Source: Occallatibacter gabretensis (GTDB taxonomy: Bacteria > Acidobacteriota > Terriglobia > Terriglobales > Acidobacteriaceae). Taken from it: 64,000 nucleotides of DNA. The first letter of the stretch is position 1, and each line of letters begins with the position of its first letter. The stretch covers positions 558,001 to 622,000 of the forward strand of contig NZ_LAIJ01000010.1 of NCBI RefSeq assembly GCF_001449115.1, read 5' to 3'. Under the pieces are notes generated by a model, which searched no databases, was not told the origin of the DNA, and saw only the letters and a program-made list of their open reading frames with translations. Below are positions 44,042-59,819 of this stretch, piece by piece. The position numbers were made by a program, and so were the translations under genes.

Positions 44042-44859
44042 GCCCCCTCTTTCATTGCCCGAGCGAGATTGTCGGAGGTGGAGCCGCGCGCCGGGACAGA
44101 AGTCTTGCCAAGCACGCAAGTTCGGGCCCGCTCCTGAATTGCGTTTTCTCCGGAGAGGATGGAAGGCTTGGTTGAACAGCAGCGCAGACAAGTCAAATGC
44201 TTCTGTTGCAGATCCTTACGAAGGGACGGAATAGAGGCTGGCAGCAGCCAAAATAGCTTTCTCGATCTGATCCGTATTAGTGCGACCTCGAGAAGTTCCC
44301 CTCAGGCACTAGCACAAAGCTGCCAATCAATCTACAGACTTGTCTATGGATAAATAAGTGATGTAGTATATCGACATGTCTAGTAACCTACCGATGTTTA
44401 CGGGTCTAAACACGATCCGGCTGCCCTCGTACGGGCGGACAGCTAATACCGAAGGCATCCGCTTCCTCCAGATATCCTCGGTTCCGCGGGCGGTAAAAAG
44501 GGTTGGACTACCAATTTAGCAGTGGATTTCCAGCGGATGACTACCGAGGCTGTTTCATTGGACCAACTAATTCGAATGACTTTGTCTGCCCCAAATCGGT
44601 GATCGTTGAAAGGTTTGGAATCAAGGCGGCAGGCTGAGGCAAAGACAAACTGAGCGAACAGCTCTCATCAACCGCATGTTGATCGGTCCGACACATCAGG
44701 GGGAGCCAAGTGGATGGCGAAGTGCAATCCAAGTCGGCCTTTTCAATCGACCGGGCTTGCAACGGATATTAGCATTTCAAAAATCAGGGTGTACCTTCCC
44801 GGTGAAACAAAGCACATTCTTATACAAAGCGTTCTTGCATGGAGTTTAACGGGGATATT
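44042..44859. other. gene-free stretch next to the integrase remnant
   Basis: About 820 bases with irregular composition and no convincing gene. It probably consists of decayed mobile DNA up to the leader of the regulator at 44860. A word GACATGTCTAGTA near 44382 resembles GTGTCTAGTAT at 55501, upstream of the ROK gene. Confidence 0.4.
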
Positions 44860-45999
44860 ATGCACGATCTAGATTCGTCGTCAGAAGCGCCGCCAAAATA
44901 CAAGCAAATTGCCGACATGTTACGCGCGAAGATCTGCTCTTTGGAATATCCTCCGGGGGACAAGCTTCCTAGCGATTCCGAGTTGAGCAAGCACTTTAGC
45001 AGTTCGCGACTAACGGTAATCCGTGCTCTCCGACAATTAGAGTCGGAAGGGCTTGTAGAACGTAAGGCAGGTTCGGGAACCTACGTCGGACTCCAGCGTG
45101 ATAATGCTGCACACTCGTTTGGGCTTCTCTTTCCCAACTTAGGGGAAGGCGAAATATTTGAACCTATATGTGCGGGCTTGGCACGAGCCGGTAGCTCGTC
45201 GCAACAAGCTCTTATCTGGGGAAACATATCGAACTCCAGTGTTAACAAGGAAGCTCAGGCTCTTGAGCTCTGTAACTCATTTATTGCAAGAAGGGTGGAT
45301 GGAGTCTTCTTTGCACCACTCGAGCTAACTTCTCATACCAAGGAGATTAATCAGCAGATTGTTAATCGTTTGGATGAAGCAAGCATTCCAATTATCTTGC
45401 TGGATCGCAGCATACAACCGTTCCCAGAGCCTACGCAGCACGATCTTGTTGGTATAGACAATTGGCGCGAAGGATGCAGAATGGCTAAATATCTCCTGGA
45501 CCTCGGCTGCACAAGACTTGGGTTCGTTGGTCGTCCCGGTTCGGCCCCAACGGTGAATGCACGCATTGCAGGCTTGAGTGAAGCAATGCGTCAATATTCG
45601 TCCGGGATGTCCTCTGAGTGTATCTTAATGGCGGATCCGACCGATATAGACACTGTCCAACGCTGGGTTGAGGTCGTTCGTCCCGATGGCGTACTTTGCG
45701 CAACCGACTATACAGCGGGGCAACTGATGCACACACTCGCAAAGCTTGGAATTGCCGTACCACAAACAATCCGGCTTGTGGGTTTCGACGACGTAAGATA
45801 TGCGAGCATTCTTCCGGTCCCTCTAACAACACTACGCCAGCCATGCCTCGAAATTGGCATTGCTGCGATGAAGGCTATGCTAGCTCGACTCGAAGATCCG
45901 TCAATGGTTCCTCGCACAATTTCGCTTGACTGCGAGCTCATCGTACGGGCCTCTTGCGGCGCAAATCCGAATTACTCAATGAGCTCTCAATTTGGCTAG
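44860..45999 (+). CDS. GntR-LacI chimeric sugar regulator (AraR-like)
   Basis: 379 residues from ATG 44860 (GGGGAT upstream; ATG 44839 is in frame). Residues 10-82 are a GntR winged helix: PPKYKQIADMLRAKICSLEYPPGDKLPSDSELSKHFSSSRLTVIRALRQLESEGLVERKAGSGTYV. The rest is a LacI-type periplasmic-binding-like ligand domain (SFGLLFPN..., VDGVFFAPLELTSH, IPIILLDRSI, DNWREGCRMAKYLLDLGCTRLGFVG, LVGFDDVRYASILPVPLTTLRQP). This AraR layout means sugar binding relieves repression. It heads the carbohydrate island and is the natural regulator for the repeated operator found at 52909 and 55896. Confidence 0.9.
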   Translation: MHDLDSSSEAPPKYKQIADMLRAKICSLEYPPGDKLPSDSELSKHFSSSRLTVIRALRQLESEGLVERKAGSGTYVGLQRDNAAHSFGLLFPNLGEGEIFEPICAGLARAGSSSQQALIWGNISNSSVNKEAQALELCNSFIARRVDGVFFAPLELTSHTKEINQQIVNRLDEASIPIILLDRSIQPFPEPTQHDLVGIDNWREGCRMAKYLLDLGCTRLGFVGRPGSAPTVNARIAGLSEAMRQYSSGMSSECILMADPTDIDTVQRWVEVVRPDGVLCATDYTAGQLMHTLAKLGIAVPQTIRLVGFDDVRYASILPVPLTTLRQPCLEIGIAAMKAMLARLEDPSMVPRTISLDCELIVRASCGANPNYSMSSQFG

Positions 46000-46091
46000 T
46001 TTAGCGGGCCGAATCTCTCAAGTTCCGTCCCAAACCAAGTTGCGGATCGATAAAGACGATTCTTTTACATGTGTCCAATATCGAGGTAGGG

Positions 46092-47849
46092 ATGCATTTG
46101 TCTATTGGAAATAGCGCGGCGGGAGCCGGAACGATGGCTGGCGGCTTTGGTCGCAATCGTACGTGGTTTGCTATTCGCGTCCTCGCTCTAAGGTGTTTTC
46201 GTCTTAGCGTCTGCCTGTTAGGTCTTCATGCTTACCTTCCGATCTCCCTTTGTGCGGAGACTACGGTAACGCATATTACGAAGCAATACTTGAATATCCC
46301 CATCGGTCGCGAAGCCAAAATGCGCGTGTTTCAGATCAGCGTCAATGGCAAACCGCAGCGCGAATTCCCAGCGCAATTGGCGGAAGGATCAATCGACTAC
46401 TGGATATTTATCGATGTGAGTGAATTTCAGGGGCAGTCAATCACACTGTCCGGCAGTGCGTCGCAGTTGGCGTTGGGGCGCATCTATCAGTCGAGCAAGA
46501 TTGACGGTCAAGGCAGCTTGTATAAAGAACTCAATCGGCCCAAGTTTCACTTTACGGTCAAGCGTGGATGGAGTAATGACATCAACGGTCCGATTTTTTA
46601 CAAGGGCCAATACCATCTGTTCTGGCAGGCGTTTCCATTTGGAGTGACGTGGGATACCGGTTTTATGTATTGGGGACACGCAGTGAGCAAGGACCTGGTT
46701 CATTGGCGAGAGTTGCCGCCCGCTCTCATGGTCGACAAGCTGGGCTCTCCCTGGTCCGGTTCAAGCGTCGTCGATCGCAACAATGACGGCGGGTGGGGGA
46801 AAGATGCGCTCGTGCTTGTCTATACAGCCTTCGACCGCTTCTCGCATAAGCAGGTGCAGTGCATTGCCTACAGCACCGACAATGGAGTTACGTTCACCCG
46901 CTTTACTGGTAATCCAGTTCTTGACACCAACATCGAGGCAGGTACGAATGACACGAGGGATCCAAAGGTCTTCTGGTATGAACCGACAAAGCGTTGGGTG
47001 ATGGTCTTATTTGAGAATGACGGGATGTCTTTCTTTAATTCGGCCGACCTGAAATTATGGACGCGGCAGAGTCACTTCAAGGGTCTTCATGAATGCCCGG
47101 ATTTCTTTGAGTTACCCGTTGACGGAGATAACAGTCATCGCAAGTGGATCCTTCATGGCGGCTCGCCTACATACTTTATCGGCAGTTTCGATGGCAGCAC
47201 ATTCACTCCTGAATCATCGGCGCTGAGCTACGCGGAGGGAAAAAACACGAAGGGAGACGACATTCTTTATGCTGCCCAGTCCTTCGCCGATATGCCGGAC
47301 GGAAGGCGTGTCCAAATGGCATGGGGAAGAATCACCGAACCAGGCATGCCCTTCAGTCAGATGATGCTCTTCCCAACGGAATTCAAGTTAGCCACTACAA
47401 AGGATGGTCTTAGATTGCTTGCTACTCCTATTCGGGAAATCGAAGGGTTGCACGCCAGGGAGTATACATGGTCTTCACTAACTGCTATGGATGCTAACAG
47501 GAGGCTGCATCTTATTCCTCCTGGACCTCTGCATATGAAGATGCAGGTAACCTTAGAGAGAGATGACGAGCTGACCATTCGATACCAGGGAAAGTCTCTG
47601 GCGACTGTGAAGTTCGGCGACCTCGACAAAGGCATCGGAGCTGCGGAGATATTGATCGACAAATCTGTAGCCGAGATATTTATCGATGGGGGAAGGCGGT
47701 ACATCGTCACGGAGTTACCGGCGACTACGAATGTTCGCGGCATTGAACTTGATATGGGACGATCGGGGAGCATCTTTAACACTCTTGACGTTTATAAGAT
47801 GACCTCCATGTGGAGACGCGAGGCAAGAGATCGCGCTCCAAGACGCTGA
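46092..47849 (+). CDS. secreted GH32 fructan hydrolase
   Basis: 585 residues from ATG 46092 (GAGGTAGGG upstream; GTG 46071 is an alternative). Signal segment in the first 60 residues, then a beta domain (about 60-125), then the five-bladed propeller of glycoside hydrolase family 32. Catalytic triad motifs: nucleophile Asp-163 in WSNDINGP, RDP in DTRDPKVFW, and the acid/base Glu in HECPDFF. A C-terminal beta sandwich follows (EILIDKSVAEIFIDGGRRYIV). It should split beta-fructosidic bonds in levan, inulin or sucrose outside the inner membrane. The WxNDxNG variant NDING instead of NDPNG is unusual. Confidence 0.9.
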   Translation: MHLSIGNSAAGAGTMAGGFGRNRTWFAIRVLALRCFRLSVCLLGLHAYLPISLCAETTVTHITKQYLNIPIGREAKMRVFQISVNGKPQREFPAQLAEGSIDYWIFIDVSEFQGQSITLSGSASQLALGRIYQSSKIDGQGSLYKELNRPKFHFTVKRGWSNDINGPIFYKGQYHLFWQAFPFGVTWDTGFMYWGHAVSKDLVHWRELPPALMVDKLGSPWSGSSVVDRNNDGGWGKDALVLVYTAFDRFSHKQVQCIAYSTDNGVTFTRFTGNPVLDTNIEAGTNDTRDPKVFWYEPTKRWVMVLFENDGMSFFNSADLKLWTRQSHFKGLHECPDFFELPVDGDNSHRKWILHGGSPTYFIGSFDGSTFTPESSALSYAEGKNTKGDDILYAAQSFADMPDGRRVQMAWGRITEPGMPFSQMMLFPTEFKLATTKDGLRLLATPIREIEGLHAREYTWSSLTAMDANRRLHLIPPGPLHMKMQVTLERDDELTIRYQGKSLATVKFGDLDKGIGAAEILIDKSVAEIFIDGGRRYIVTELPATTNVRGIELDMGRSGSIFNTLDVYKMTSMWRREARDRAPRR

Positions 47850-47970: not shown

Positions 47971-49026
47971 TCAAATTGTCTTAACTTGAACTGGGGGGAG
48001 GCACTCAATTAATTCCATCCCCTCTTTGGTATGGATCGTAACTCCATGAGCAGCGAAGGGAACGAAGAAATACGCGCCTTTCTTCACTTTACTTGTACCA
48101 GCCAAGCTCGCCAATTCGCCCTCCCCGCTTGTTACGACGTAGACCGCCAGGTTCTGCAAGGCACAAGACGTTTTCACTCGGTACCGATTTACAGCGAAGC
48201 AGGGCGTATCTTTGAATGAGATGAGAACTTCTTTTCGATAATCATTGTTTTCCTCGTCAACCTTCGCCTCCTTCCTTCCCCGAGCGAGAACCGAAGGTCC
48301 TGCCTGCTCCAAATCAAAACAACCGAGAGCCACCTCTTTATCGAGGCCAAGATACATTTCCTGATCGGAGAGGCGATAACGATCGCACCAGCGTTCAGGT
48401 TGAATCGTGAAGTCAGTCGGTTCCTGGACTTCCAGAATCAGACATCCGGCTCCGATCGCATGTGCAACGCGGGCAGGGATCAACCACACGTCGCCTGAGT
48501 TGGCCTCGACCTCTTGAAGCAGAACGGGAAAGGCGTCGCCTGGTTGTTCGCCGTTTCTCACTGCGAGGCGCAAATCAGTTTCAGTCACGCCTTGCTTGAA
48601 GCCGAAGAAGAGCTTTGCACCCGGTCTGGTTGCAAGGATGACCCAACACTCAGTCTTCCCATGGTTACTAGCGAAATGTTTTCTCGAGAACTCAGGATCA
48701 GGATGAGTTTGAGCCGGCAATCGGACGGCGCTATCGAGAATCTTGACTAGAATGTCGAATCCATTGCCATTGGTCATTTCCCCAGGATTGCTTGCGAGCA
48801 GCGAGGCAAAGGTTGTCTCCTCACCTCGGATTCTTGAAAGCCCTTCATCTGGCCCTCGCATCTCCTTGTTCAAGGCTTTCACCTTCGATGCGATCCACTC
48901 CTCAGGCAAATTCCCGTCGACGGCTTCGTCTCCAAAGAAATCATGAAAAAGCTTGCCCCCTTCGTAAACTCGGAAGACGCGATTTCGCTCGAAAAATAAT
49001 GGGCTTTGAAAGTCTGATGTCGTCAT
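47971..49026 (-). CDS. class I mannose-6-phosphate isomerase-like cupin enzyme
   Basis: 351 residues from ATG 49026 (GGAG nine bases upstream). Type I phosphomannose isomerases interconvert mannose-6-phosphate and fructose-6-phosphate with zinc. Visible are the metal-site residues in LPAQTHPDPEFSRKHF and GKTECWVIL, the central helix region, and WLIPARVAHAIGAGCLILEVQEPTDFTIQPERW in the second cupin. The last gene of a minus-strand operon that starts with the triple-fusion protein, 23 bases after the SIS gene. Because its partners suggest heptose-like substrates, a different phospho-sugar is possible. Confidence 0.82.
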   Translation of the reverse strand: MTTSDFQSPLFFERNRVFRVYEGGKLFHDFFGDEAVDGNLPEEWIASKVKALNKEMRGPDEGLSRIRGEETTFASLLASNPGEMTNGNGFDILVKILDSAVRLPAQTHPDPEFSRKHFASNHGKTECWVILATRPGAKLFFGFKQGVTETDLRLAVRNGEQPGDAFPVLLQEVEANSGDVWLIPARVAHAIGAGCLILEVQEPTDFTIQPERWCDRYRLSDQEMYLGLDKEVALGCFDLEQAGPSVLARGRKEAKVDEENNDYRKEVLISFKDTPCFAVNRYRVKTSCALQNLAVYVVTSGEGELASLAGTSKVKKGAYFFVPFAAHGVTIHTKEGMELIECLPPVQVKTI

Positions 49027-49048
49027 CGCAATTAGCTCCAATCTGTGA

Positions 49049-49669
49049 TTATTCCCAATGTCTTACGAAATATTCTTCCAGCATCAACGAGAGGCAGTGA
49101 TAAATGGGAAGATGGAATTCCTGAACGTGCGGCGTCAGCGTGCTTGGAACGCAAATACAGACGTCAGCTAATTCTTTGAGGCTGCCGCCGGATTTTCCCG
49201 TCAATCCCAGAACAGGGAGGCTCTTCGCACGAGCGACCTCAGCAGCGCGGCACACATTGGAGGCGTTTCCCGAGGTGCTCAATGCAGCCAGCACATCGCT
49301 GCTTCTACCAAGTGCGAGTACGAGCTGCGCAAAGACATATTCTGGATCGACATCATTTCCGAATGCCGTTGAAAAAGCAAGAAAGCCCGTCAATGGAATG
49401 ACCGGAAATGCCCATTGGAGATGGGCAGCCATTTTGGGCGGCAGTCCCTTGCGCATGGAAGCGGTGAGCGGCCTGGGATGTGAAAAGCTCTTGAGAAGTT
49501 CGCCGGCCCAATGCTCCGCATCCGCGGCGCTTCCACCATTTCCGCATAGCAGAAGCTTTCCGTCTCTTCTGAACGTCGCAGTCAGCAGATCATATGCATC
49601 TTGAATTTCAGACTGGCATTCTTTCAGCAGGGGATAGCGTTCGATCAAATCCCGAAGGTGTGTTGACAT
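49049..49669 (-). CDS. SIS-domain phosphosugar isomerase (GmhA-like)
   Basis: 206 residues. A single SIS domain with the phosphate-binding GNGGSAADAEHWAGELLKSFSH signature near residue 43, ALSTSGNASNV near 140, and the final HLPIYHCLSLMLEEYFV. Order and motifs match D-sedoheptulose-7-phosphate isomerase (GmhA), including the conserved His in the last helix. GmhA turns sedoheptulose-7-phosphate into D-glycero-D-manno-heptose-7-phosphate. It lies two bases after the stop of the PfkB-HAD fusion, in the same order as the heptose kinase and phosphatase steps, so the two very likely act in one pathway. Confidence 0.85.
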   Translation of the reverse strand: MSTHLRDLIERYPLLKECQSEIQDAYDLLTATFRRDGKLLLCGNGGSAADAEHWAGELLKSFSHPRPLTASMRKGLPPKMAAHLQWAFPVIPLTGFLAFSTAFGNDVDPEYVFAQLVLALGRSSDVLAALSTSGNASNVCRAAEVARAKSLPVLGLTGKSGGSLKELADVCICVPSTLTPHVQEFHLPIYHCLSLMLEEYFVRHWE

Positions 49670-49671
49670 CG

Positions 49672-52600
49672 TTATCCTCGTAGTTCCTGTAGCAGTGCGA
49701 GTAGGAAGTCGCGGTTATCGGCGCAGACATAACGCATCGTTCCACCCATCCGGCTGAATGTTTTGCAAAAGCGCAAGTAATAGGCAGGATTGTCAGCAGG
49801 TGGTTCACCATCACGTTGCCAGTCCCAGGAGTTCTCGGCCAAGTCAACAATGACCATGTGGTGGTTGGTGATCTTGCGCTCTTGCAGCAGTTCAAGATTT
49901 TGCGACATGGAAAGCGATTTCTCGAATACCATCGGTGACATTACAGCAGAACCCACCGAAAGATACACTCCTCCCTCCAATCGATGTACTTGTTCCGCGT
50001 AAGTGAGAAAGTCTCTCAGTGCGACGCGTCCAATTGCTGCTCCGTTGTTTATCGGGTGGGTGTAAATGACGTCATGGCCGAACATCGGATGCGCTGTGAA
50101 AGGAATGTTCAGTCGAAAAGCTGCAGCCTGTGCGCTGTACTTCTTGAAGGGATGAGGGATAGGACGGAAGCCAGGTTCAAGGCCGAATCTTTGAATCGTA
50201 TCCGCTAGATCGAGGGCTGAAGCAGCACTGCTGGGATCCTGTTCTGCGTTGGTCCTGGCAATTCTTAACAACTCCTCCGGAACGGGAATGTCTAACCCAT
50301 CGCGCATGATCATCTTGCCTACAGCCTCACCGTAACCAATCCCCTCGTAGGCCCCAACGATTAGCGCTAGATTCAGATTGAATCCTGTCTCTTCCCACAT
50401 ACCGAATTGGCCAAGATTCACATTGGATCGGACATCCTCACTACTGAATCCTTGAAAAGCAAACTCCCAATCGTGAATGATTCCTGCTCCGTTGGTGGCG
50501 AGAAGAGTGACCCATCCCTGCTCCATGAGTTGGATAAGAACCGGTGCCAGGCCATTCTTAATGGTGTGCGCACCAAAGGCCAGCATGACAGGTCGGCCAG
50601 CGCTTCGAGCAGCGCGGATTTTCTCCGCGCATTCCACTAATGCCCCTGCAGTCGCCGGGGAAATAGGTCCTGGCGTGGCTTCCACCAAAACAGCGTCGCG
50701 CTCGATGTTGACCTTGTTCACACGGACATTGAGTTTACGAGTCTGCAAATGGGAGCGGTCAAATTGAGGATGCGAGATGTTTTGTAAGCGCGGACGAGGG
50801 AGTTGAAGCACCTCCCAGAGTTTTTGCCATTGCGAGAAATCAGGAACAACTGCATTCGCTCCTGCGCGAATGAGGCGAGTTCGTTTTTCTGGATTCAACC
50901 CGAAGCGGCGCAATTCGTTGCTGGCAACACCTACGGCGAGCGCATCTCGCCGCACAGTTTCGCGAATTTCGACAGGTCCATCTCCAAACGTGATGATTTG
51001 TTCGGCAGCTCCATTGATCTTGTTAAGAATTCCTTCGATGACGATTCTCTTTGCATCTTTGTCGACCTCGCCAATTGAACCGTAGATTCTACCATCGAAG
51101 ACATCTGCGTAGCCTAGTCGTTCGGCCTCCCTTTTCACGTCCTCCACGTCGGTGCCACTGGCTAGGTAGAGCAGCACGCCAGCCTGCCTGAGCGCTCGAA
51201 GAAACGGCACCACGCCCTTCAATGTGAAGTCGCTAACGCTCAATTCGCCGCGATCGAGCTTAGCTATACGCATGTCTACAACTTCTGTAAGTTCCTTGTT
51301 GAACATTTCTTTATATTCCGTCGCTGAACGGACCTGGTTCTCCGGCACAAGTCCAAACTCTCCGATCAATTGCGCGAGTCCGTGCATCTGCGCGATTGTC
51401 TGAATGCCCGTTGTGCGCTCGATGAACTCTCGCACACGCTTTCGGATTCGAAGGAATACTGCTTCATCATCCATGCGATGTTGAGTTCCAAGAATGGACC
51501 TGATCATCATCGGTTCCATGATCTCTTCCCACCCTTGGCGGAGCGTGGAGATGGTGCCATCATGATCGAATAGGATATGTCGGATATTTAGAGCAGGGAT
51601 GGGCTTGTTGATGGTTTCGATTTCGGATCCGTCAATATATCGTGCGCGATGGAGAGATTCGGCAAGTTCCGGATTGTGAACGCGATCAGCATGCTTCCCC
51701 AATTCAAGAATTTCCTGGCGACTCGCGGTGCCAGTCTGGAGAAGTTTCTGAACTGTAACCGCAGCCGCAATATTGGCGACGAACGCGGCGGAAGCGAGAC
51801 CTGCTCCGGCTGAGATACAGGCCATAAGCGCCGCACAAAAAGTGTCGCCCGCCCCGACCGGATCTAACGGGCCGGATAGTTGTAGACCGTAGACCCGAGA
51901 TACTTCACCGCCGGCGGCGATGATACAGCCCCGCTCTCCGCGAGTGACGATGAGGGGCGAATTCCAACGTTCGCAAAGCAACGGAGCTTGCTGAATGAGG
52001 TCTTCCAGAAGAACTGTTTCGTGGGCATCAACAGGCTTTCCACTTGCCCGCATAATTTCATGTTCGTTGAGCTTATGAATCGCCTTTGGATAAGAATCAT
52101 GGTATCCGCGTGAGTCGACGATGAAGATCAGTTGAGGATACCGCTCTATCAACTGCGCGAGTCGATGTCGAAAGGCCGGGGAGTCATGAATGCTTCCAGT
52201 AACTTGATGATTGATCAAAACTACGGAGACCCTGCGCAGAATCTCTTCAAGTTTTGTAAGAAGCTCCGCTTCCGCTAAATCGGATAGCCGATTGAAATTT
52301 CCAATATCGATACGGCTCAATTCCTGACTTTCCACACACGGCTTAATATAAGCCGGCGTCGCCCAGCCTTTATCCTGCGATACCAGGCCGGTGCAATTTA
52401 CATGAGGGTCTTTGAATAGCAGTCGCAGCTCGCGCCCAAAAGGATCTTCCCCTAACACTCCTACGGGATAGACGGTTTCAACCCCAAGAGCCAGTAGGTT
52501 CATAACCACGTTGCCCGCACCGCCTGGCGAGTATCGCTGGTGACTGACCGGCTCAGTGTTGAGTCCGGTCTCAATTGAGAGCTCAGATGCGGATCGGTCA

Positions 52601-52737
52601 ATTGCCCAATAAATATCCAGGCAAAAGTCGCCTATAACGGCTGCCGAGACGCTGGGAATGCTATCCAAGATTGAAGATATTTCCACCGTTGGGACCGTGT
52701 ATTGAGCCCGAAGGCTGTCTTCTTGCCATTCAGTCAT
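49672..52737 (-). CDS. PfkB kinase - HAD phosphatase - DHS-like triple fusion
   Basis: 1021 residues. Residues 20-355 are a PfkB carbohydrate kinase closest in style to the HldE kinase half: GGAGNVVMNLLALG (about 72-85), VDSRGY, and the catalytic Asp-298 in DPVGAGDTF. Residues 385-625 form a HAD phosphatase with an all-helical cap: FDHDGT (Asp-391), LASGTD, and TFGDGPVE. Residues 670-1021 resemble deoxyhypusine-synthase-like NAD-binding domains (FGAHTIKNGLAPVL, LATNGAGIIHDWE) but no active-site Lys pattern was found. It leads an operon with a GmhA-like isomerase and a PMI. Predicted to phosphorylate and dephosphorylate a heptose-like sugar; the third domain's role is unknown. Confidence 0.8.
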   Translation of the reverse strand: MTEWQEDSLRAQYTVPTVEISSILDSIPSVSAAVIGDFCLDIYWAIDRSASELSIETGLNTEPVSHQRYSPGGAGNVVMNLLALGVETVYPVGVLGEDPFGRELRLLFKDPHVNCTGLVSQDKGWATPAYIKPCVESQELSRIDIGNFNRLSDLAEAELLTKLEEILRRVSVVLINHQVTGSIHDSPAFRHRLAQLIERYPQLIFIVDSRGYHDSYPKAIHKLNEHEIMRASGKPVDAHETVLLEDLIQQAPLLCERWNSPLIVTRGERGCIIAAGGEVSRVYGLQLSGPLDPVGAGDTFCAALMACISAGAGLASAAFVANIAAAVTVQKLLQTGTASRQEILELGKHADRVHNPELAESLHRARYIDGSEIETINKPIPALNIRHILFDHDGTISTLRQGWEEIMEPMMIRSILGTQHRMDDEAVFLRIRKRVREFIERTTGIQTIAQMHGLAQLIGEFGLVPENQVRSATEYKEMFNKELTEVVDMRIAKLDRGELSVSDFTLKGVVPFLRALRQAGVLLYLASGTDVEDVKREAERLGYADVFDGRIYGSIGEVDKDAKRIVIEGILNKINGAAEQIITFGDGPVEIRETVRRDALAVGVASNELRRFGLNPEKRTRLIRAGANAVVPDFSQWQKLWEVLQLPRPRLQNISHPQFDRSHLQTRKLNVRVNKVNIERDAVLVEATPGPISPATAGALVECAEKIRAARSAGRPVMLAFGAHTIKNGLAPVLIQLMEQGWVTLLATNGAGIIHDWEFAFQGFSSEDVRSNVNLGQFGMWEETGFNLNLALIVGAYEGIGYGEAVGKMIMRDGLDIPVPEELLRIARTNAEQDPSSAASALDLADTIQRFGLEPGFRPIPHPFKKYSAQAAAFRLNIPFTAHPMFGHDVIYTHPINNGAAIGRVALRDFLTYAEQVHRLEGGVYLSVGSAVMSPMVFEKSLSMSQNLELLQERKITNHHMVIVDLAENSWDWQRDGEPPADNPAYYLRFCKTFSRMGGTMRYVCADNRDFLLALLQELRG

Positions 52738-52943: not shown

Positions 52944-53235
52944 TTATTTGATGCATACACGTATATGATATGTTGATCATCTCGGAGAATGGGTGAAATG
53001 GAGAGAATGCTCAAGCGTGGTGAAGTTTGATTGGGATGGAAAGGGACGGCCAGTTCTTATTTCTACGCTTGGAGCGGTCCAGAGGAAGGAAATGAGAACG
53101 GGCAATGCGGGAGTTGTCGTCTCGGCTCAAAGGCGTATACGCCACGTCAAAGGGCAGTTAGGCGCTGCAAACTCACGAGACACGTGAAGTCACTGAATGT
53201 CATGTTTATAGCCGATTGGGCCTTTGGAGTTGCAG
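52944..53235 (+). promoter_or_regulatory. divergent leader of the MFS gene
   Basis: A second palindrome-like word CATACACGTATATG (52954-52967) sits 24 bases beyond the fusion-operon promoter and probably controls the MFS gene in the other direction. The remaining leader to 53235 holds no credible gene. Confidence 0.45.
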
Positions 53236-54576
53236 ATGTCTGAAATACGCAGAGCTCTCAACAAAACCTTGTTGGCCACATGTTTGATTGCATCGCTGGG
53301 CGGGCTTCTATTCGGGTTCGATACTGCGGTCATTGCGGGAACAACTAGTTCGCTCACCGATGCTTTTCATCTTTCTCCGTTTGTTCTTGGCCTCACGGTA
53401 TCAAGTGCGCTATGGGGCACAGTTTTGGGGGCCGGCTTTGCGGGGAAACTGGGAGATATGTTTGGCCGTCGCACTTGTCTTCGCGCCCTGGGCCTGCTTT
53501 ATGTGCTTTCTGCCCTGGGGTGCGCATTGGCCTGGGGATGGTACCCCCTGATGTGTTTTCGTGTGCTCGCCGGCCTGGCAGTTGGCGCCTCGTCGGTGAT
53601 CAGCCCAACGTATATTGCGGAGATCTCTCCGCCGAATCTTCGCGGCCGCCTGGTAATGGCGTTTCAATTCAATGTTGTACTTGGAATGTTGTCCGCATAC
53701 TTTTCTAACTTCTGCCTGGGGTTGTTGCACCTTGGAGCAGCAGACTGGCGCTGGAAATTCAGCGTTGCGATCATCCCGGCTTTAGTTTTCTACTTTGCTT
53801 TATTTTTCATTCCTGAAAGCCCCCGCTGGCTGGTGGGTAAAACCAAGATGCCGGAGGCATTGGAAGTGCTCAGGCGAAACGGCGACCCCGATCCGGAACT
53901 TGAACTCGGCGAAATCTCCAGGTCTTTGCAGGTTGCAGTTGGATCGAAAGGAGGGAATGTCTTTCAATGGCGCTATCGCCTTCCCATATTTCTTGCCATT
54001 TCCATTGGAATGTTCAACCAGCTCTCGGGCATCAACGCCATCCTCTACTACCTGAATGACATCTTTGAAAAAGCCGGCTTTGACAAAGGATCAAGCGATC
54101 TTCAGGCGGTGCTCATTGGCATTACCAACCTCATCGGCGTGACTTTGGCGATGTTGGTCATCGATAGGATTGGCCGCAGGATGCTTCTCCTCATTGGCTC
54201 TGTCGGGACTACGATTTGTCTTTTTGGGGTCGGCACAATATTTCGGCTGGAACAGTATCAGGGATCTCTCGTTTGGCTCCTGATGGGCTTTATCGGTTTC
54301 TTCACCTTTTCACAAGGGGCTGTAATATGGGTCTATATCAGCGAAGTTTTTCCGAACCGGGTGCGGGCCAAGGGGCAGAGCATTGGCAGCTTTACGCATT
54401 GGCTGATGAATGCCCTGGTATCGATGGTCTTTCCGATTGCCGCTGCCAGGTGGCATTCAGGACCGTTCTATTTTTTCTCGGGATTTACGGCGCTCCAATT
54501 CATCGTTGTGATTCTTTTCTTTCCGGAAACACGCGGAGTCAGGCTTGAAGCGATGGAGGAACAACTGCATCGTTAA
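53236..54576 (+). CDS. MFS sugar porter
   Basis: 446 residues from ATG 53236 (GGAG eight bases upstream), 12 predicted membrane helices. Sugar-porter family marks: GGLLFGFDTAVIAGT in helix 1, GKLGDMFGRRTCL and DRIGRRMLLL loops, PESPRWLVGKTKMPEAL after helix 6, the QLSGINAILYYLNDIF motif in helix 7, and PETRGV at the end. These proteins usually bring in monosaccharides by proton symport. It faces away from the fusion operon and ends inside the ROK gene on the opposite strand (38-base overlap), so its substrate is likely the sugar phosphorylated by that kinase. Confidence 0.92.
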   Translation: MSEIRRALNKTLLATCLIASLGGLLFGFDTAVIAGTTSSLTDAFHLSPFVLGLTVSSALWGTVLGAGFAGKLGDMFGRRTCLRALGLLYVLSALGCALAWGWYPLMCFRVLAGLAVGASSVISPTYIAEISPPNLRGRLVMAFQFNVVLGMLSAYFSNFCLGLLHLGAADWRWKFSVAIIPALVFYFALFFIPESPRWLVGKTKMPEALEVLRRNGDPDPELELGEISRSLQVAVGSKGGNVFQWRYRLPIFLAISIGMFNQLSGINAILYYLNDIFEKAGFDKGSSDLQAVLIGITNLIGVTLAMLVIDRIGRRMLLLIGSVGTTICLFGVGTIFRLEQYQGSLVWLLMGFIGFFTFSQGAVIWVYISEVFPNRVRAKGQSIGSFTHWLMNALVSMVFPIAAARWHSGPFYFFSGFTALQFIVVILFFPETRGVRLEAMEEQLHR

Positions 54577-55459
54577 GCCGATCAAGACGCGCCGGATTCT
54601 GCTTATAAATATGTTCGGCAACGAGAGCTAAGGCCCCCCAAAGAACGCTCTCTCCGGTGAGAGCAGCCGGAACCACTGCGACGTTCGCTTTCCACCAGGA
54701 CGTCATTTGGCGGGCCAACTCCTCTCGCAAGGGAACGAAGAGCAAATCTCCGGCCTGGCTGATTCCTCCGCCGATGATGATGCGGGCAGGATTGAGGAAC
54801 ATCAGGCAGCTCTTGATCCCCTGGGCAAGATGAATCACATAACGAGAAACAAACTCCGGATCCTTGAAGAGTTTTTGTGCAGGACTGCCATAATCGCGTT
54901 CAAGCCAGAGCCCGGAGCACATTCGCTCGAGGCAGCCGTTGGAGCCGCAGAGACAGGCCGGCCCGCCCGGAACGATCGTGTGGTGACCTAATTCACAGGC
55001 AAATGAGTCAGCTCCACGATATAGCCCATTCTCGGTAAGCAGCCCGCCTCCGATTCCCGTGGAAAGCGTGATATAAAAGAGCGGCCGGAAGCCTCGGCCT
55101 GCCCCAAAATACCCTTCCCCTAGAACGCCGACCATGCTGTCGCGATCAATGACGACCGGCGCGCCGAATCGCTCCTGAACCTCTCTGGCCAGGTCAAAAC
55201 CTTCCCAACCGTCCACATGCGTGGAAGCAATAACCTTCTGGGCAGCGAAGTCAACTGGACCGCCGAATCCAACTCCGCATCCGTGGATGGCTGTGTCGCG
55301 CCATTGGACTTTGAGCATCTTTTCGATTCGATCCAACATACCCTTCGGACCTGCGGTTCGGTCAGTCGGGTGCGAGAGCTTTCCTCTCAACGATGTCCCC
55401 TCGAAGACAGCGATACTGAAGTTCGTTCCTCCGATATCGATTGCGAGAGTGTTTTTCAT
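54539..55459 (-). CDS. ROK-family sugar kinase
   Basis: 306 residues from ATG 55459. N-terminal ATP-binding AIDIGGTNFSIAVFEG, sugar-site ESTVGF-like GVGFGGPVDF, the catalytic region VVIDRDSMVGVLGEGYFGAG, ITLSTGIGGGLL, CELGHHTIVPGG, and the zinc-binding CLCGSNGCLER. No helix-turn-helix, so it is an enzyme of the glucokinase/fructokinase class rather than a NagC-type repressor. It would phosphorylate hexoses released by GH32 or brought by the MFS porter. Gene end overlaps the MFS gene end. Confidence 0.9.
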   Translation of the reverse strand: MKNTLAIDIGGTNFSIAVFEGTSLRGKLSHPTDRTAGPKGMLDRIEKMLKVQWRDTAIHGCGVGFGGPVDFAAQKVIASTHVDGWEGFDLAREVQERFGAPVVIDRDSMVGVLGEGYFGAGRGFRPLFYITLSTGIGGGLLTENGLYRGADSFACELGHHTIVPGGPACLCGSNGCLERMCSGLWLERDYGSPAQKLFKDPEFVSRYVIHLAQGIKSCLMFLNPARIIIGGGISQAGDLLFVPLREELARQMTSWWKANVAVVPAALTGESVLWGALALVAEHIYKQNPARLDRLNDAVVPPSLQA

Positions 55460-55878
55460 GCATTTCACGATAGCACATAGTTTTTAGCATATATGTATAC
55501 GTGTCTAGTATCTATTTAGCGGAATCTCTTGCGAATATCCGGAAATATATGGTAATAGAGAGGTTATAGCTGAAATGCAATCGAAAGGGCGTGAGCGGCC
55601 AGACTCTTCACCACCGACGTGCTCGTGCGCGAGGCGAATGATCCGTGACACGACGTTCTTTCCTGGTTTTCTGCTGGGGTTGCGGGTCGGATGGAAATTT
55701 ATATATATCTAGAAATAAACGACATATATCCATATATTACAGCTGATCTCTTCCTTGCGCGAACCGCTACGAGAGCAGGCTTGATTGAGATGTCCTCTCG
55801 TGCGGGGTTGGCTTGGTTGAAGACTCTTACTCTTTCACCACCGCCTCCTGATGCTCGATAGGTATATATATTTCATCG
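55460..55878. other. AT-rich spacer with operator-like words
   Basis: About 420 bases between the ROK start and the TonB promoter. ATGTATACGTGT (55493-55504) lies close to the ROK start and resembles the shared operator; CATATATCCATATATTA occurs near 55723. No credible gene. Confidence 0.45.
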
Positions 55879-55913: not shown

Positions 55914-56164
55914 CGTCGTGAATCACGAAAAATCAACGTAACAAAGCCGCTGCGGGGATGAAGCCCGGAAACAAGACACGGGGAGCGATTTGGCTTGCAC
56001 TGAAGCAGCCGCAAGAAGTGTTTTGAGAAAGTAATTCCGGAGGAAGTGATGGCGGAGGAAGTAATAAGTGTGAAGACGCGGATTGGAAGCGGAACCATGA
56101 CAAAGATGCGCCAAGTACGACAATCTCCTGCATTCGTCATGGAAGCCGTCGGTTTTGAAAATTC

Positions 56165-56199
56165 GAGGAGGCAAAACAATGGGCGAGGAGGCGACACAA
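56165..56199 (+). repeat. tandemly duplicated ribosome binding site
   Basis: CGAGGAGGCAAAACAATG is followed at once by a second copy CGAGGAGGCGACACAATG whose ATG at 56199 is the receptor start. The first copy's ATG leads into another frame. Confidence 0.8.
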
Positions 56200-59100
56200 T
56201 GAAGAATTGGAGCTGGACGATCAAAGTACTGGTCGGGATCTTCGCGATCCTGACTTTAGCAGGTACGTACTTTCCATCTAATGTGGCCATTGCACAATCG
56301 ACGCGCGGATCTCTTTCAGGAAATGTTCTGGACCAGTCGGGCGCGGTCATTTCGGGAGCCAAGATCAGCGCCCGCGACCCCAATACAGGTGTGACGCGGA
56401 CCACGGTTTCGAGCGCCGAAGGTTCCTATAACTTTCCGGAGTTGAATCTGGGTTCCTATGATGTCACTGCATCAGCCCCCGGCTTTTCGACGCTCGTCCA
56501 GCATGGGGTGCAGGTTACGGTGGGCAATGTGTCCGCCCTGAACTTGACGCTGAAAGCCGGCAGCGCCGAGACGACGATCAGTGTGGATGCTTCTTCGCCG
56601 ACCATTGAGACGCGATCATCTGACATTGGTGGAACAATTCAGAACCGGGAGATCGAAGAACTGCCGCTTGCGCTTGGCGGCGTCGGCGCTCTTCGCTCGC
56701 CTGAATCTTTTGAATTCCTGCTGCCTGGCACGACGGGCCCCGGCTCTGAATCCAGCTTGACCGGCGACATTTATAACTTGAGGATCTCGGGCTCTGAGAT
56801 GCAGGCCAATAGCGACATTCTCGACGGCGCGGACCAGATTAGAAGCGAAAACGGCTCCGAGTTCGATGAAGAGGCGCCATCCGTAGAGGCGCTTCAGGAA
56901 TTCAAGGTGACGACGGGGATTCCCGAGGCGGAGTACGGACGGACAGAGGGCGGCACCGAGAGCTTTGTGACTAAGAGCGGTACGAACCGATATCACGGCA
57001 CAGCATTCGACATCGTCAAGAATGCAGCGCTCGACGGAAACACCTGGTTCAATAATGGAGGTCTAGCAACGATCTGCGTGGGCGCGAACAATACTCCTCT
57101 GTGCACCAGTAATTATGTGAAACCCGCCGATACGCAGAACGATTTTGGAGTCACGCTGGGTGGACCTGTAAGGGTTCCGCACGTTATCAACGGGGTCGAT
57201 AAGCTCCAGTTTTTCTTCGCCTGGGAGCAAATCCTGCATACAGTTGGCGGGACGATGATCAGCACTGTGCCGACTGTTCCCGAACGGGGCGGGGATTTTA
57301 CCGATCTCTATAATCCGGCGGCGCCACCGGCTGGCGGCAGCACGGCTATCAATCCTTGTAACGGCCAGCCTGTATATCCCGGCGAGATATTCGATCCTTC
57401 AACACAACGGGTTGTCAACGGAACGCCATGCCGGCTTCCCTTCGCGGGCAACAAGATTACGACGCCGATCAGTGCGGTGGCGACAAACGTTCTCGCTTAT
57501 ACTCCCTCTCCGACGGAGCCGGGCCTGATTAACAACTTCTATTATCCCTTTACGCAGCCAATCAACAACACCACTAACACCATCCGGATTGATGCCAGTC
57601 CTTCTCCCCGGCAGAAGTTATTCGCATCTTACTCGTCACGCGACAATCTCCGCACCTGCTGCTCAACTCCAAATCTTCCTTACCCTGAAGCTTCTATTGG
57701 CTGGAGCCAGAACTTCACGACGCATTTTGCCCGAGCTGGTTGGGACTTCATTATTACGCCAACCATGTTGAACCACTTCAACTTCGGATATAACCGCTCG
57801 AACAGCGCCTGTTTTGCCTTTCCGGCCTTAGGGAACATCGATTACACGCAGAAGCTTGGAATTTCCAATGCGCCTCCTTCCAAAAACTTTACCAATATCA
57901 GCTTCAACAGCCGGGATCAGTACGTCGCCTTGGGCAGTTCGCTGAACAACGATTGGATCGACAACGGGTGGCGCTTCAATGACAGCGTAAGCATAGAGAA
58001 GGGGCGCAACAGCTTCAAGTTCGGTGCGGACTACCGCATTCAGCAGTTTTCACCGATTTCCTATCCAACTCCCACTCTGGGCTATGATCGCGCGCAGACG
58101 GCATCGGACCCTGCGAACTCGGAGCTCGACGGCAACAGCTTTGCAAGCCTTCTCCTCGGCCAAGTCTCAACCGGCAACTTCGGGGCGGGGCTGAATTTTT
58201 CATTGCCGCGATGGACGTCGTCCTACTATGCGTTATTTGCCCAGGACGACCTGAAGGTGAGCGACAGGTTGACCCTCAACCTTGGCGTCCGCTGGGACGT
58301 GGATATTCCCCGCACGGCAGCACACAACTACACCTCTAATTTCAGCCCAACCGCGAACGACCCCGAGTACAACATTCCCGGAGCCCTCGTCTTCGGTACA
58401 ACCTATAAAGGTAATACGCGTTGGGCCGACACCTACTACAAAGACTTTCAACCTAGATTCGGATTCGCTTTTACTCCGTTTCTGAATGGAAAGACCGTGA
58501 TTCGCGGCGGCGCCGGCATGATCTCTGGTCCGCTACTCTATGCCGACGACGGCGGCGGAATGAACGTTGGCTACAAGATTCAGCCTGCGTTTACGAGCAG
58601 CGATGGCTTTTCGCCATCTTTTCTGGTCGACAACGGCTTCCCATCCTACGGTCAACCGCCGGATCTCGACCCGGGCATCTTCAACGGTCAGCCCCTGAGC
58701 GACCAATGGATCCGGTCTTCGCAAGGCAAACCGGACATGCTCTTTGAGTGGGCCCTCCAGGTTCAGGAGCAGCTTGCACAGGATCTTATCCTCGAAGTCG
58801 GCTATACGGGCAATAAGGCCCAGAACCTTCGTTCGTCTCTGGAAAACCCCAACAACATTCCCCAGAGTGCGTTCAGCCTGGGCAATGAACTGAATTCCGC
58901 CGTGGCTGGGAACACCGTGGGAGTGGTTGCCCCCTTCGCGGGGTTCTACTCTTTGTGGGGCGCGGGCGCGCCCATCAACCGCGCTCTCCGTCCTTTCCCT
59001 CAGTATTCTCAAATCGACGCAGGCTGCTGCCTTCAGAACGACGGCATGTCGACATACAACGCGCTCCTCGTGTCTCTGAACCGGCGCTACAGGAACGGTT

Positions 59101-59819
59101 TGTCTCTGCAGGTTTCCTACACCTTTGAGAAGACTCTGACGAATGCCGAATCGGAGCAACCGGAGCCTACTACCATTCAGAATCCCGCCGATCTTCACGA
59201 AGAAAAGGCCATCTCAATACAAGACCTGCCGCATACTCTGGTTCTGGCGCCTCTCTATCAATTGCCTTTCGGAAAAGGAAAGAAGTACTTAAACAGTGGA
59301 CCCGCCAGCTACCTTGCCGGCGGATGGGAGATCGGCACGATTCAGCGCTACGAGTCAGGGATACCGATCGCATTCTGTTGCGCAACCGCGATTCCCGGCT
59401 GGGATAATCTCATCCGCTACAACCGGGTTCTGGGGCAGTCCTTAAAGAGCCCGAGCTATCGTTCGGGCAAGATAAATCCCTTCGTCGCTGGACAGATCAG
59501 CTTCTTCAATGCTGCGGCCTTTAGTGATCCTAACAGCACTGCCAATCGAGGTGCCGGAGCCTATACATTTGGCAACACACCTCGGGTCACAGGAGAGGTG
59601 AGGATGCAGCACTACGACGATGAAGACATCAGCGTAATGAAGACCACTCCGGTCCGCGAAGGAGTGAATGTTGTGATCAAAGCGGAAGCGTTGAATATGT
59701 TCAACCGCCATATGTTCAATGTTCCGGACACGAATCCGACGGACTCCTCATTTGGGATTCCAAACTCAACCATTACGAGCCCAAGAAACATACAGTTCAC
59801 GATCCGTGTAAGCTTCTGA
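56199..59819 (+). CDS. Oar-like TonB-dependent receptor
   Basis: 1206 residues from ATG 56199. Signal peptide (IKVLVGIFAILTLAG... IAQS), then a carboxypeptidase-regulatory Ig domain (GSLSGNVLDQSGAVISGAKISARDPNTGVTRTTVSSAEGSYNFPELNLGSYDVTASAPGF, about 35-95), a plug (IETRSSDIGGTIQNREIEELPL), and a long beta barrel ending in NIQFTIRVSF with terminal Phe. This outer membrane class is large in Acidobacteria and takes up oligosaccharides or other large ligands with TonB energy. Set between the sugar kinase and two arabinofuranosidases and sharing its promoter design with the fusion operon, it likely imports the oligosaccharide handled by the island. Confidence 0.9.
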   Translation: MKNWSWTIKVLVGIFAILTLAGTYFPSNVAIAQSTRGSLSGNVLDQSGAVISGAKISARDPNTGVTRTTVSSAEGSYNFPELNLGSYDVTASAPGFSTLVQHGVQVTVGNVSALNLTLKAGSAETTISVDASSPTIETRSSDIGGTIQNREIEELPLALGGVGALRSPESFEFLLPGTTGPGSESSLTGDIYNLRISGSEMQANSDILDGADQIRSENGSEFDEEAPSVEALQEFKVTTGIPEAEYGRTEGGTESFVTKSGTNRYHGTAFDIVKNAALDGNTWFNNGGLATICVGANNTPLCTSNYVKPADTQNDFGVTLGGPVRVPHVINGVDKLQFFFAWEQILHTVGGTMISTVPTVPERGGDFTDLYNPAAPPAGGSTAINPCNGQPVYPGEIFDPSTQRVVNGTPCRLPFAGNKITTPISAVATNVLAYTPSPTEPGLINNFYYPFTQPINNTTNTIRIDASPSPRQKLFASYSSRDNLRTCCSTPNLPYPEASIGWSQNFTTHFARAGWDFIITPTMLNHFNFGYNRSNSACFAFPALGNIDYTQKLGISNAPPSKNFTNISFNSRDQYVALGSSLNNDWIDNGWRFNDSVSIEKGRNSFKFGADYRIQQFSPISYPTPTLGYDRAQTASDPANSELDGNSFASLLLGQVSTGNFGAGLNFSLPRWTSSYYALFAQDDLKVSDRLTLNLGVRWDVDIPRTAAHNYTSNFSPTANDPEYNIPGALVFGTTYKGNTRWADTYYKDFQPRFGFAFTPFLNGKTVIRGGAGMISGPLLYADDGGGMNVGYKIQPAFTSSDGFSPSFLVDNGFPSYGQPPDLDPGIFNGQPLSDQWIRSSQGKPDMLFEWALQVQEQLAQDLILEVGYTGNKAQNLRSSLENPNNIPQSAFSLGNELNSAVAGNTVGVVAPFAGFYSLWGAGAPINRALRPFPQYSQIDAGCCLQNDGMSTYNALLVSLNRRYRNGLSLQVSYTFEKTLTNAESEQPEPTTIQNPADLHEEKAISIQDLPHTLVLAPLYQLPFGKGKKYLNSGPASYLAGGWEIGTIQRYESGIPIAFCCATAIPGWDNLIRYNRVLGQSLKSPSYRSGKINPFVAGQISFFNAAAFSDPNSTANRGAGAYTFGNTPRVTGEVRMQHYDDEDISVMKTTPVREGVNVVIKAEALNMFNRHMFNVPDTNPTDSSFGIPNSTITSPRNIQFTIRVSF

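Follow-up and report, generated by a model that had tools for sequence, protein, structure and literature searches.

The closest described counterparts of the protein considered here are the enzymes of the ADP-heptose pathway (GmhA, HldE, GmhB, and HldD) and, for its last domain, the deoxyhypusine synthase (DHS) and AgrE/ArgZ proteins. The protein is encoded in Occallatibacter gabretensis, within a stretch of 64,000 nucleotides that we call the window (assembly GCF_001449115.1, contig NZ_LAIJ01000010.1, positions 558,001 to 622,000), and it joins an HldE-like kinase, a HAD phosphatase, and a domain of the GSU2086 family (NF052581), which is catalogued but uncharacterized and whose name gives no reaction. 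In Geobacter sulfurreducens, going by locus-tag number, GSU2086 lies between hldE and gmhA, and hldE, GSU2086, and gmhA stand in one fitness table for growth on electrodes with scores of −3.1, −3.2, and −3.7, in that order (PMC5585712). A literature search, with most subscription papers outside its scope, turned up neither a description of the fusion nor a function for GSU2086; GSU2086 was mentioned only in this paper, and the phrase "heptose catabolism" was found in none of the literature searched. An earlier reading of the window made from the sequence alone (the sequence-only reading) had considered the third domain an unheard-of partner for such a kinase and phosphatase, a view that the Geobacter arrangement and the common neighborhood of kinase-HAD and GSU2086 genes described below do not sustain.

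The protein is a real fusion, so far singular, which condenses a widespread, uncharacterized gene association. From sequence comparisons we propose, at a probability of about 0.42, that it would be the one-chain form of a recurring set, made up of a GmhA-like SIS isomerase, an HldE-like kinase, a HAD phosphatase, and GSU2086, for a phosphosugar of manno configuration, which would most likely be D-glycero-D-manno-heptose 7-phosphate or something closely related to it.

Domain architecture and fusion junction

The fusion is encoded on the minus strand, a strand that the sequence-only reading did not name, by an intact open reading frame (49672..52737) that runs uninterrupted for 1021 amino acids, and the plus strand across the same interval contains many stops. 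Its parts are the following.

51673..52677, minus strand: domain 1, PfkB kinase whose nearest kin is the heptose-7-phosphate kinase domain of HldE (residues ~21–355; Pfam, NCBIfam, PDB)
50800..51585, minus strand: domain 2, HAD phosphatase (residues ~385–646; PF00702; motifs FDHDGT, LASGTD, FGDGPVE)
50773..50799, minus strand: linker (residues ~647–655; homology limits and codons read; gene end and next gene start in split relatives)
49672..50772, minus strand: domain 3, GSU2086 family, predicted DHS/AgrE-type NAD-binding fold (residues ~656–1021 plus stop; NF052581, model, fold matches)
50158..50298, minus strand: insert of ~47 amino acids inside domain 3 (residues 814–860; low-occupancy columns of alignment A1)

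That three domains share one chain, as had been read from the sequence, is borne out by PfkB, HAD, and GSU2086-family matches within this one frame. The kinase matches Pfam PfkB at residues 46–332 (E = 2.3e-27) and carries GGAGN at residues 72–76 and GAGDTF at 295–300, the phosphatase matches Pfam Hydrolase PF00702 at residues 385–591 (E = 4.5e-14) and carries FDHDGT at 390–395 and FGDGPVE at 584–590, and domain 3 carries FGAHTIKNG at 721–729 and TNGAGIIHDWE at 748–758. The description of the first two domains as an HldE-style kinase and a HAD phosphatase likewise stands: the nearest family of the kinase is TIGR02198 (rfaE_dom_I), at 124.1 bits (E = 6e-36) and under the equivalog cutoff of 345, and the best solved relative of the fusion in a PDB sequence search is the heptose 7-phosphate kinase 4e84 (E = 8e-10). 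Of the 29 distinct sequences that this search returned for the whole fusion, nearly all align with the kinase and bear the names of sugar or adenosine kinases, and none matches domain 3; one match, 6lzh at E = 0.45, was taken as chance. The TIGR02199 adenylyltransferase domain is not among the NCBIfam families listed for the fusion (25 of 27).

From where the kinase-HAD homology stops (~646) to where that of GSU2086 begins (~655), the codons include neither a stop nor an in-frame ATG, GTG, or TTG; in-frame codons of start type come closest at GTG 643 and TTG 664, with none from 644 to 663, and the longest homopolymer in the junction stretch read is a run of five A's, upstream. Since the junction has neither a stop nor a start-type codon, and no homopolymer longer than five, an assembly error is unlikely as the source of the fusion. 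The host assembly consists of 19 contigs and is rated as 100% complete, its contamination being put at 0.33%.

Family and fold of the third domain

NF052581 (GSU2086_dom) matches residues 658–1017 at 329.1 bits against a cutoff of 250, covering profile positions 1–300 of 301, and a search of the host genome with this profile returned one GSU2086 protein, at 332.5 bits. A model predicted from the domain in the window together with 64 relatives (mean pLDDT 95.5, pTM 0.93) has its best structural match in AgrE/ArgZ, whose ornithine cyclodeaminase domain gives Z 18.7 over 220 residues, and it matches the deoxyhypusine synthase 7cmc with Z 18.0 (root mean square deviation 3.6, 248 residues) and 8put with Z 17.6; apart from DHS and AgrE/ArgZ, the solved structures among the fold matches shown include one more, a putative LOR/SDH protein with no assigned function. 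When domain 3 was compared by hhalign with a profile of 20 DHS-family proteins from the phylum genomes, the probability was 95.3 and the E value 2e-8 over 270 columns. The model, predicted with high confidence, thus has the DHS/AgrE-type NAD-binding fold. The Pfam DHS family PF01916 (DS) reaches 16.2 bits against a cutoff of 27 (E = 0.0064), and it covers residues 696–762 only. The claim of the sequence-only reading divides: the DHS-like NAD-binding fold that it had guessed is upheld by the structural matches (Z 17–19) and the profile homology, but the PF01916 cutoff was missed, and domain 3 is not near enough to DHS to take that name, AgrE/ArgZ fitting equally well. An identity of domain 3 as deoxyhypusine synthase itself was rejected on the same Pfam cutoff.

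The catalytic lysine of DHS sits in a Ser-Trp-Gly-Lys motif, and in the hhalign alignment it falls on no conserved lysine; Lys940 and Lys992, spotted by eye as possible equivalents, were not borne out by this alignment and were not used. In the ten-sequence alignment A1, Lys992 (domain position 338) is Lys in 5/5 kinase-linked sequences and Asn in 5/5 others, and the insert at residues 814–860 is common to the window protein and L042 and is not found in the other eight sequences. In the window clade, six or more basic residues show little or no variation (domain positions R18, K73, K286, R335, K338, and R342), and these would suit a phosphorylated substrate.

Distribution of the fusion and of its split relatives

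Relatives of domain 3 were compared at the loci of the best 80 of at least 586 confirmed, where partner counts depend on contig ends and where neighbors were named by eye, save those run against Pfam or NCBIfam. The triple fusion occurs in none of these 80 loci, and in a scan of 349 class genomes, which scored no more than two candidates in each, it was found end to end in one frame only in the host (G000). A HAD-GSU2086 fusion suspected in G358 (match residues 586–1017) had, on a closer look, no HAD domain. Identity to domain 3 is 44–67% in the 64 aligned relatives. A kinase is present in 38 of the 80 loci, a HAD phosphatase in 39, and both in 36. The comparison with split versions that had been proposed from the sequence brings out two arrangements: kinase and HAD are fused in 27 loci (14 Spirochaetota, 10 Bacteroidota), and each of these 27 fusions immediately precedes a GSU2086 gene of its own; in G019 the kinase, HAD, and GSU2086 are three separate genes, which are followed by a SIS gene. 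The G019 cluster, in the order HAD-GSU2086-kinase-SIS, is also followed by a hexulose-6-phosphate synthase-like gene below equivalog cutoffs (L040, 5303-6133). In a Candidatus Alistipes locus (L119, 8992-11218), a tandem pair of GSU2086 genes stands behind the kinase-HAD fusion.

A GmhA-like SIS gene occurs in 24 of the 80 loci, and other conserved neighbors, recognized by eye, include ROK (16), AGE-type epimerase (15), LacI (14), GH38 alpha-mannosidase (11), SSS symporter (9), and ABC permease (9); in Mariniphaga anaerophila (L064) the AGE, GH38, and GH92 assignments were confirmed by Pfam. The locus L127 has the order kinase-HAD, GSU2086, ManA, SIS, and its ManA is 51% identical to that of the window. 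On a Chloroflexota plasmid, a HAD-GSU2086-kinase-SIS row lies in a locus with an ABC sugar importer, Gfo/Idh, deoC, ROK, and GntR. Eight further regions were opened in genomes of the same class, picked for HAD adjoining GSU2086, and these hold a HAD-GSU2086-kinase-ROK-SIS group, whole or in part (HAD in 8/8, kinase in 7, ROK in 6, SIS in 4); kin of the window ROK were found in six of the eight (phmmer E 8e-108 to 1e-113). In L175, L176, L179, and L182, the HAD-GSU2086-kinase-ROK genes lie near a large protein (~850 amino acids) that by eye resembles an alpha-glucan phosphorylase.

Association with heptose genes

One link to heptoses comes from G017, a genome of the same genus as the host, which encodes a 686-amino-acid kinase-HAD fusion with 47% identity to the window protein over residues 21–646. 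What comes after its gene is not GSU2086 but a nucleotidyltransferase and then an HldD epimerase, both over their equivalog cutoffs, and its kinase scores 147.7 bits with TIGR02198, likewise under the cutoff of 345. In the literal sense, then, the sequence-only reading was right that domain 3 replaces the expected nucleotidyltransferase, given this arrangement and a host genome with no TIGR02199 nucleotidyltransferase match at E ≤ 0.001. A tree of 28 such fusions, unrooted and built without a canonical HldE outgroup, groups the G017 protein among those linked to GSU2086 and loosely with the window protein (SH-aLRT 80). A kinase-HAD pair acting as a regulator of a bisphosphate in the manner of PFK-2/FBPase-2 was considered and dropped, there being no evidence for it and the G017 operon favoring consecutive steps. 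At L041 (8062-11636), a kinase-HAD fusion, a nucleotidyltransferase, and an HldD epimerase stand in a row, and there the HAD may replace GmhB in an ADP-heptose-type operon.

The association extends over the phylum, for which the first sample comprised 297 genomes, 196 of them with GmhA (E ≤ 1e-35). GSU2086 is over its cutoff in 98 of the 297, and GmhA is commoner in its company (79/98 genomes, vs 117/199 without GSU2086). At least 23 gene pairs have GSU2086 within 520 bp of gmhA, a lower bound obtained by comparing 82 GSU2086 places with 27 gmhA places picked by eye as lying on the same contig, and in one of the 23 (G298) the GSU2086 match is below cutoff. An HldD gene adjoins window-type GSU2086 in five of the eight opened regions (five genomes, three genera), and the three tested are all over the HldD equivalog cutoff. 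On a Solidesulfovibrio plasmid, GSU2086 and SIS adjoin the gene of a divergent nucleotidyltransferase-kinase protein (L061, 13450-14979); the domain order of this protein is the reverse of that in HldE, and pseudaminic acid genes are nearby. The idea that NAD serves as adenylyl donor in place of a nucleotidyltransferase was rejected, because the HldE beside GSU2086 is annotated with a nucleotidyltransferase of its own and the L061 protein likewise carries one.

Genomic neighborhood and host genome

Around the fusion, the window encodes the following proteins.

49049..49669, minus strand: GmhA-like isomerase with a SIS domain, 2 bp downstream from the fusion gene (Pfam SIS_2; TIGR00441 134.1 bits in two stretches, cutoff 209.45)
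47971..49041, minus strand: ManA-like cupin isomerase, 7 bp beyond SIS (TIGR00218 51 bits, cutoff 116)
54539..55468, minus strand: ROK sugar kinase (Pfam ROK 8e-51)
53224..54576, plus strand: sugar porter of the MFS type, divergent (TIGR00879 348 bits, over cutoff; Pfam Sugar_tr)
46071..47849, plus strand: GH32 family glycoside hydrolase, presumably of the fructan type (Pfam PF00251 2.5e-64)
44839..45999, plus strand: GntR-type regulator with a periplasmic-binding-like sensor domain (Pfam GntR 1e-19, Peripla_BP_3 1e-26)

Farther out, a frame of 1257 amino acids (56046-59819) by eye resembles a TonB-dependent outer-membrane receptor whose N-terminal domain is carboxypeptidase-like.

HldD, the nucleotidyltransferase, GmhA, and GmhB were also searched by profile in 80 genomes (40 with GSU2086, 36 without, and four chosen: G000, G017, G019, and G306). 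The host genome has no HldD over cutoff, and its GmhA over cutoff sits elsewhere in the genome, near a GmhB-like match below cutoff. There (contig C2; L162, 7340-10566), further genes resemble by eye those of a GHMP heptose kinase and a sugar nucleotidyltransferase, so that with the GmhB-like protein and this GmhA they look like a GDP-heptose set; genes that by eye resemble those of polysaccharide export are nearby. Because this GDP-heptose-like set lies elsewhere in the host, the window module is probably a second set, placed beside GH32, the sugar porter, ROK, the ManA-like isomerase, and the GntR-type regulator.

Proposed pathway and alternatives

In the pathway that we propose, a sugar would be imported and phosphorylated by ROK, and the SIS isomerase, by its likeness to GmhA, would interconvert ketose and aldose phosphates. 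The GSU2086 domain, judged by its fold, gene neighbors, and conserved basic residues, may carry out a redox-neutral, NAD-dependent step of the isomerase or epimerase type at the 7-phosphate stage. By their likeness to the kinase-HAD protein of the ADP-heptose-type operon, the kinase would then phosphorylate C1 as a second position, after which the HAD phosphatase would take off the distal phosphate and leave a sugar 1-phosphate. As the host lacks an HldE-type nucleotidyltransferase, this product would probably be used otherwise, perhaps entering metabolism from a sugar-utilization locus; importers, ROK, LacI, and GH38/GH92 give part of the loci such a setting. Consecutive steps in one chain would suit putative channeling. 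The links to gmhA, hldE, and hldD speak for a heptose, and the neighbors of the GH32, ManA, and alpha-mannosidase types for a hexose.

Several observations weigh against the heptose proposal. In the window, the kinase and the SIS and ManA-like isomerases all score below equivalog cutoffs, and no GmhB for the HAD is among the NCBIfam families listed for the fusion (25 of 27), so that the substrate may have drifted, for example to hexoses, as the GH32 and ManA-like neighbors and the alpha-mannosidases of the relatives would allow. Simple catabolism would have little use for a kinase paired with a phosphatase. No partner that was searched for was detected in 33 of the 80 loci; some contigs end nearby. 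G017 has a second nucleotidyltransferase elsewhere, in a frame of 502 amino acids, and its kinase-HAD operon may for this reason itself be a variant. The binding of NAD by domain 3 is putative, deduced from the predicted fold.

The likeliest alternative, though we consider it less probable than the heptose reading, is that the set has been recruited to mannose or fructose: ROK would give mannose-6- or fructose-6-phosphate, ManA and SIS would interconvert these, the kinase-HAD pair would shift the phosphate from C6 to C1, and GSU2086 would convert an intermediate. The GH32 and ManA-like genes of the window fit such a route, as do the GH38 and AGE-type epimerase clusters in 11 and 15 of the 80 loci (each cluster named from one member), the ROK gene adjoining the set in six of the eight opened regions, and the scores of kinase, SIS, and ManA below their equivalog cutoffs. 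It is opposed by G017, where the same type of kinase-HAD protein has a nucleotidyltransferase and HldD as neighbors, and by the ties of GSU2086 to gmhA, hldE, and hldD as well; moreover, AGE and ROK alone would do for mannose.

Rather improbable is a second alternative, in which GSU2086 would be a non-orthologous substitute for HldD that epimerizes C6 of the heptose ahead of nucleotide activation. In the first sample, HldD is over cutoff in 0/79 GmhA genomes with GSU2086 vs 63/117 without (Fisher 6e-19, uncorrected for relatedness), as such a substitution would predict, yet 3/98 GSU2086 genomes of that sample also have HldD. In the second sample, that of the opened regions, HldD genes were found directly adjoining GSU2086 in the same class, and we have therefore demoted this explanation to a minor one.

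It is more improbable still that domain 3 handles amines, adding or removing an amino group on a sugar or polyamine: its fold relatives DHS and AgrE, an ornithine cyclodeaminase, do act on amines, but the neighbors of GSU2086 are sugar and sugar-phosphate enzymes, PF01916 is below its cutoff, and the Ser-Trp-Gly-Lys motif aligns with no conserved lysine. The least probable explanation is that a sequencing or assembly error has united two adjacent genes whose true arrangement is the ordinary one, since the frame is continuous through a junction where codons 644–663 hold neither stop nor start-type codon and homopolymers do not exceed five, even if the fusion is the only one among the loci and class genomes surveyed and the in-frame GTG at codon 643 is a possible internal start.

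Comparison with known systems

The fusion ties GSU2086 to kinase and phosphatase steps and hence to a concrete substrate class, which matters because one in three genomes of the phylum sample has a member of this family over cutoff, often with heptose genes as neighbors, and no reaction is assigned to it. Together with its neighbors, the fusion would narrow GSU2086 function to phosphosugar metabolism, probably that of heptoses. Tentatively, we may be seeing an undescribed pathway for a heptose or heptose-like phosphosugar, spread over envelope biosynthesis and sugar-utilization loci in several phyla, with its signature step carried out by a DHS-fold NAD enzyme on a phosphorylated sugar and not on an amine, and condensed here into a three-domain protein. 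We know of no sugar-phosphate activity in the DHS/AgrE-fold superfamily, and such an activity, if true, would be new chemistry for it. Loci with importers, ROK, and alpha-mannosidases hint at manno-configured sugars, perhaps heptoses, as nutrients.

With the ADP-heptose pathway, the fusion and its SIS neighbor share the kinase and isomerase superfamilies and the logic of a kinase followed by a phosphatase; the differences are that the fusion kinase and the window isomerase are below the equivalog cutoffs of that pathway and that the nucleotidyltransferase is in neither the protein nor the genome. Closest in architecture are the kinase-HAD fusions with a separate GSU2086 gene in Bacteroidota and Spirochaetota, such as that of M. 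anaerophila, which have the same domains in the same order and a kinase-HAD identity of 37–49%. The M. anaerophila system, unlike that of the window, consists of two genes, and its neighbors are GH38, GH92, AGE, and a LacI-like end fragment, compared with GH32, ManA, and GntR here. Domain 3 belongs by score to the GSU2086 family and differs in being fused behind a kinase and a HAD phosphatase, to both of which it is never fused in the 80 best relatives. With DHS and the AgrE/ArgZ domain it would have in common the NAD-binding fold predicted by the model (Z 17–19) and homology over 270 profile columns, whereas it scores below the DS cutoff and has no recognizable catalytic lysine motif, and whereas DHS and AgrE/ArgZ have polyamine or arginine neighbors, those of GSU2086 are sugar genes.

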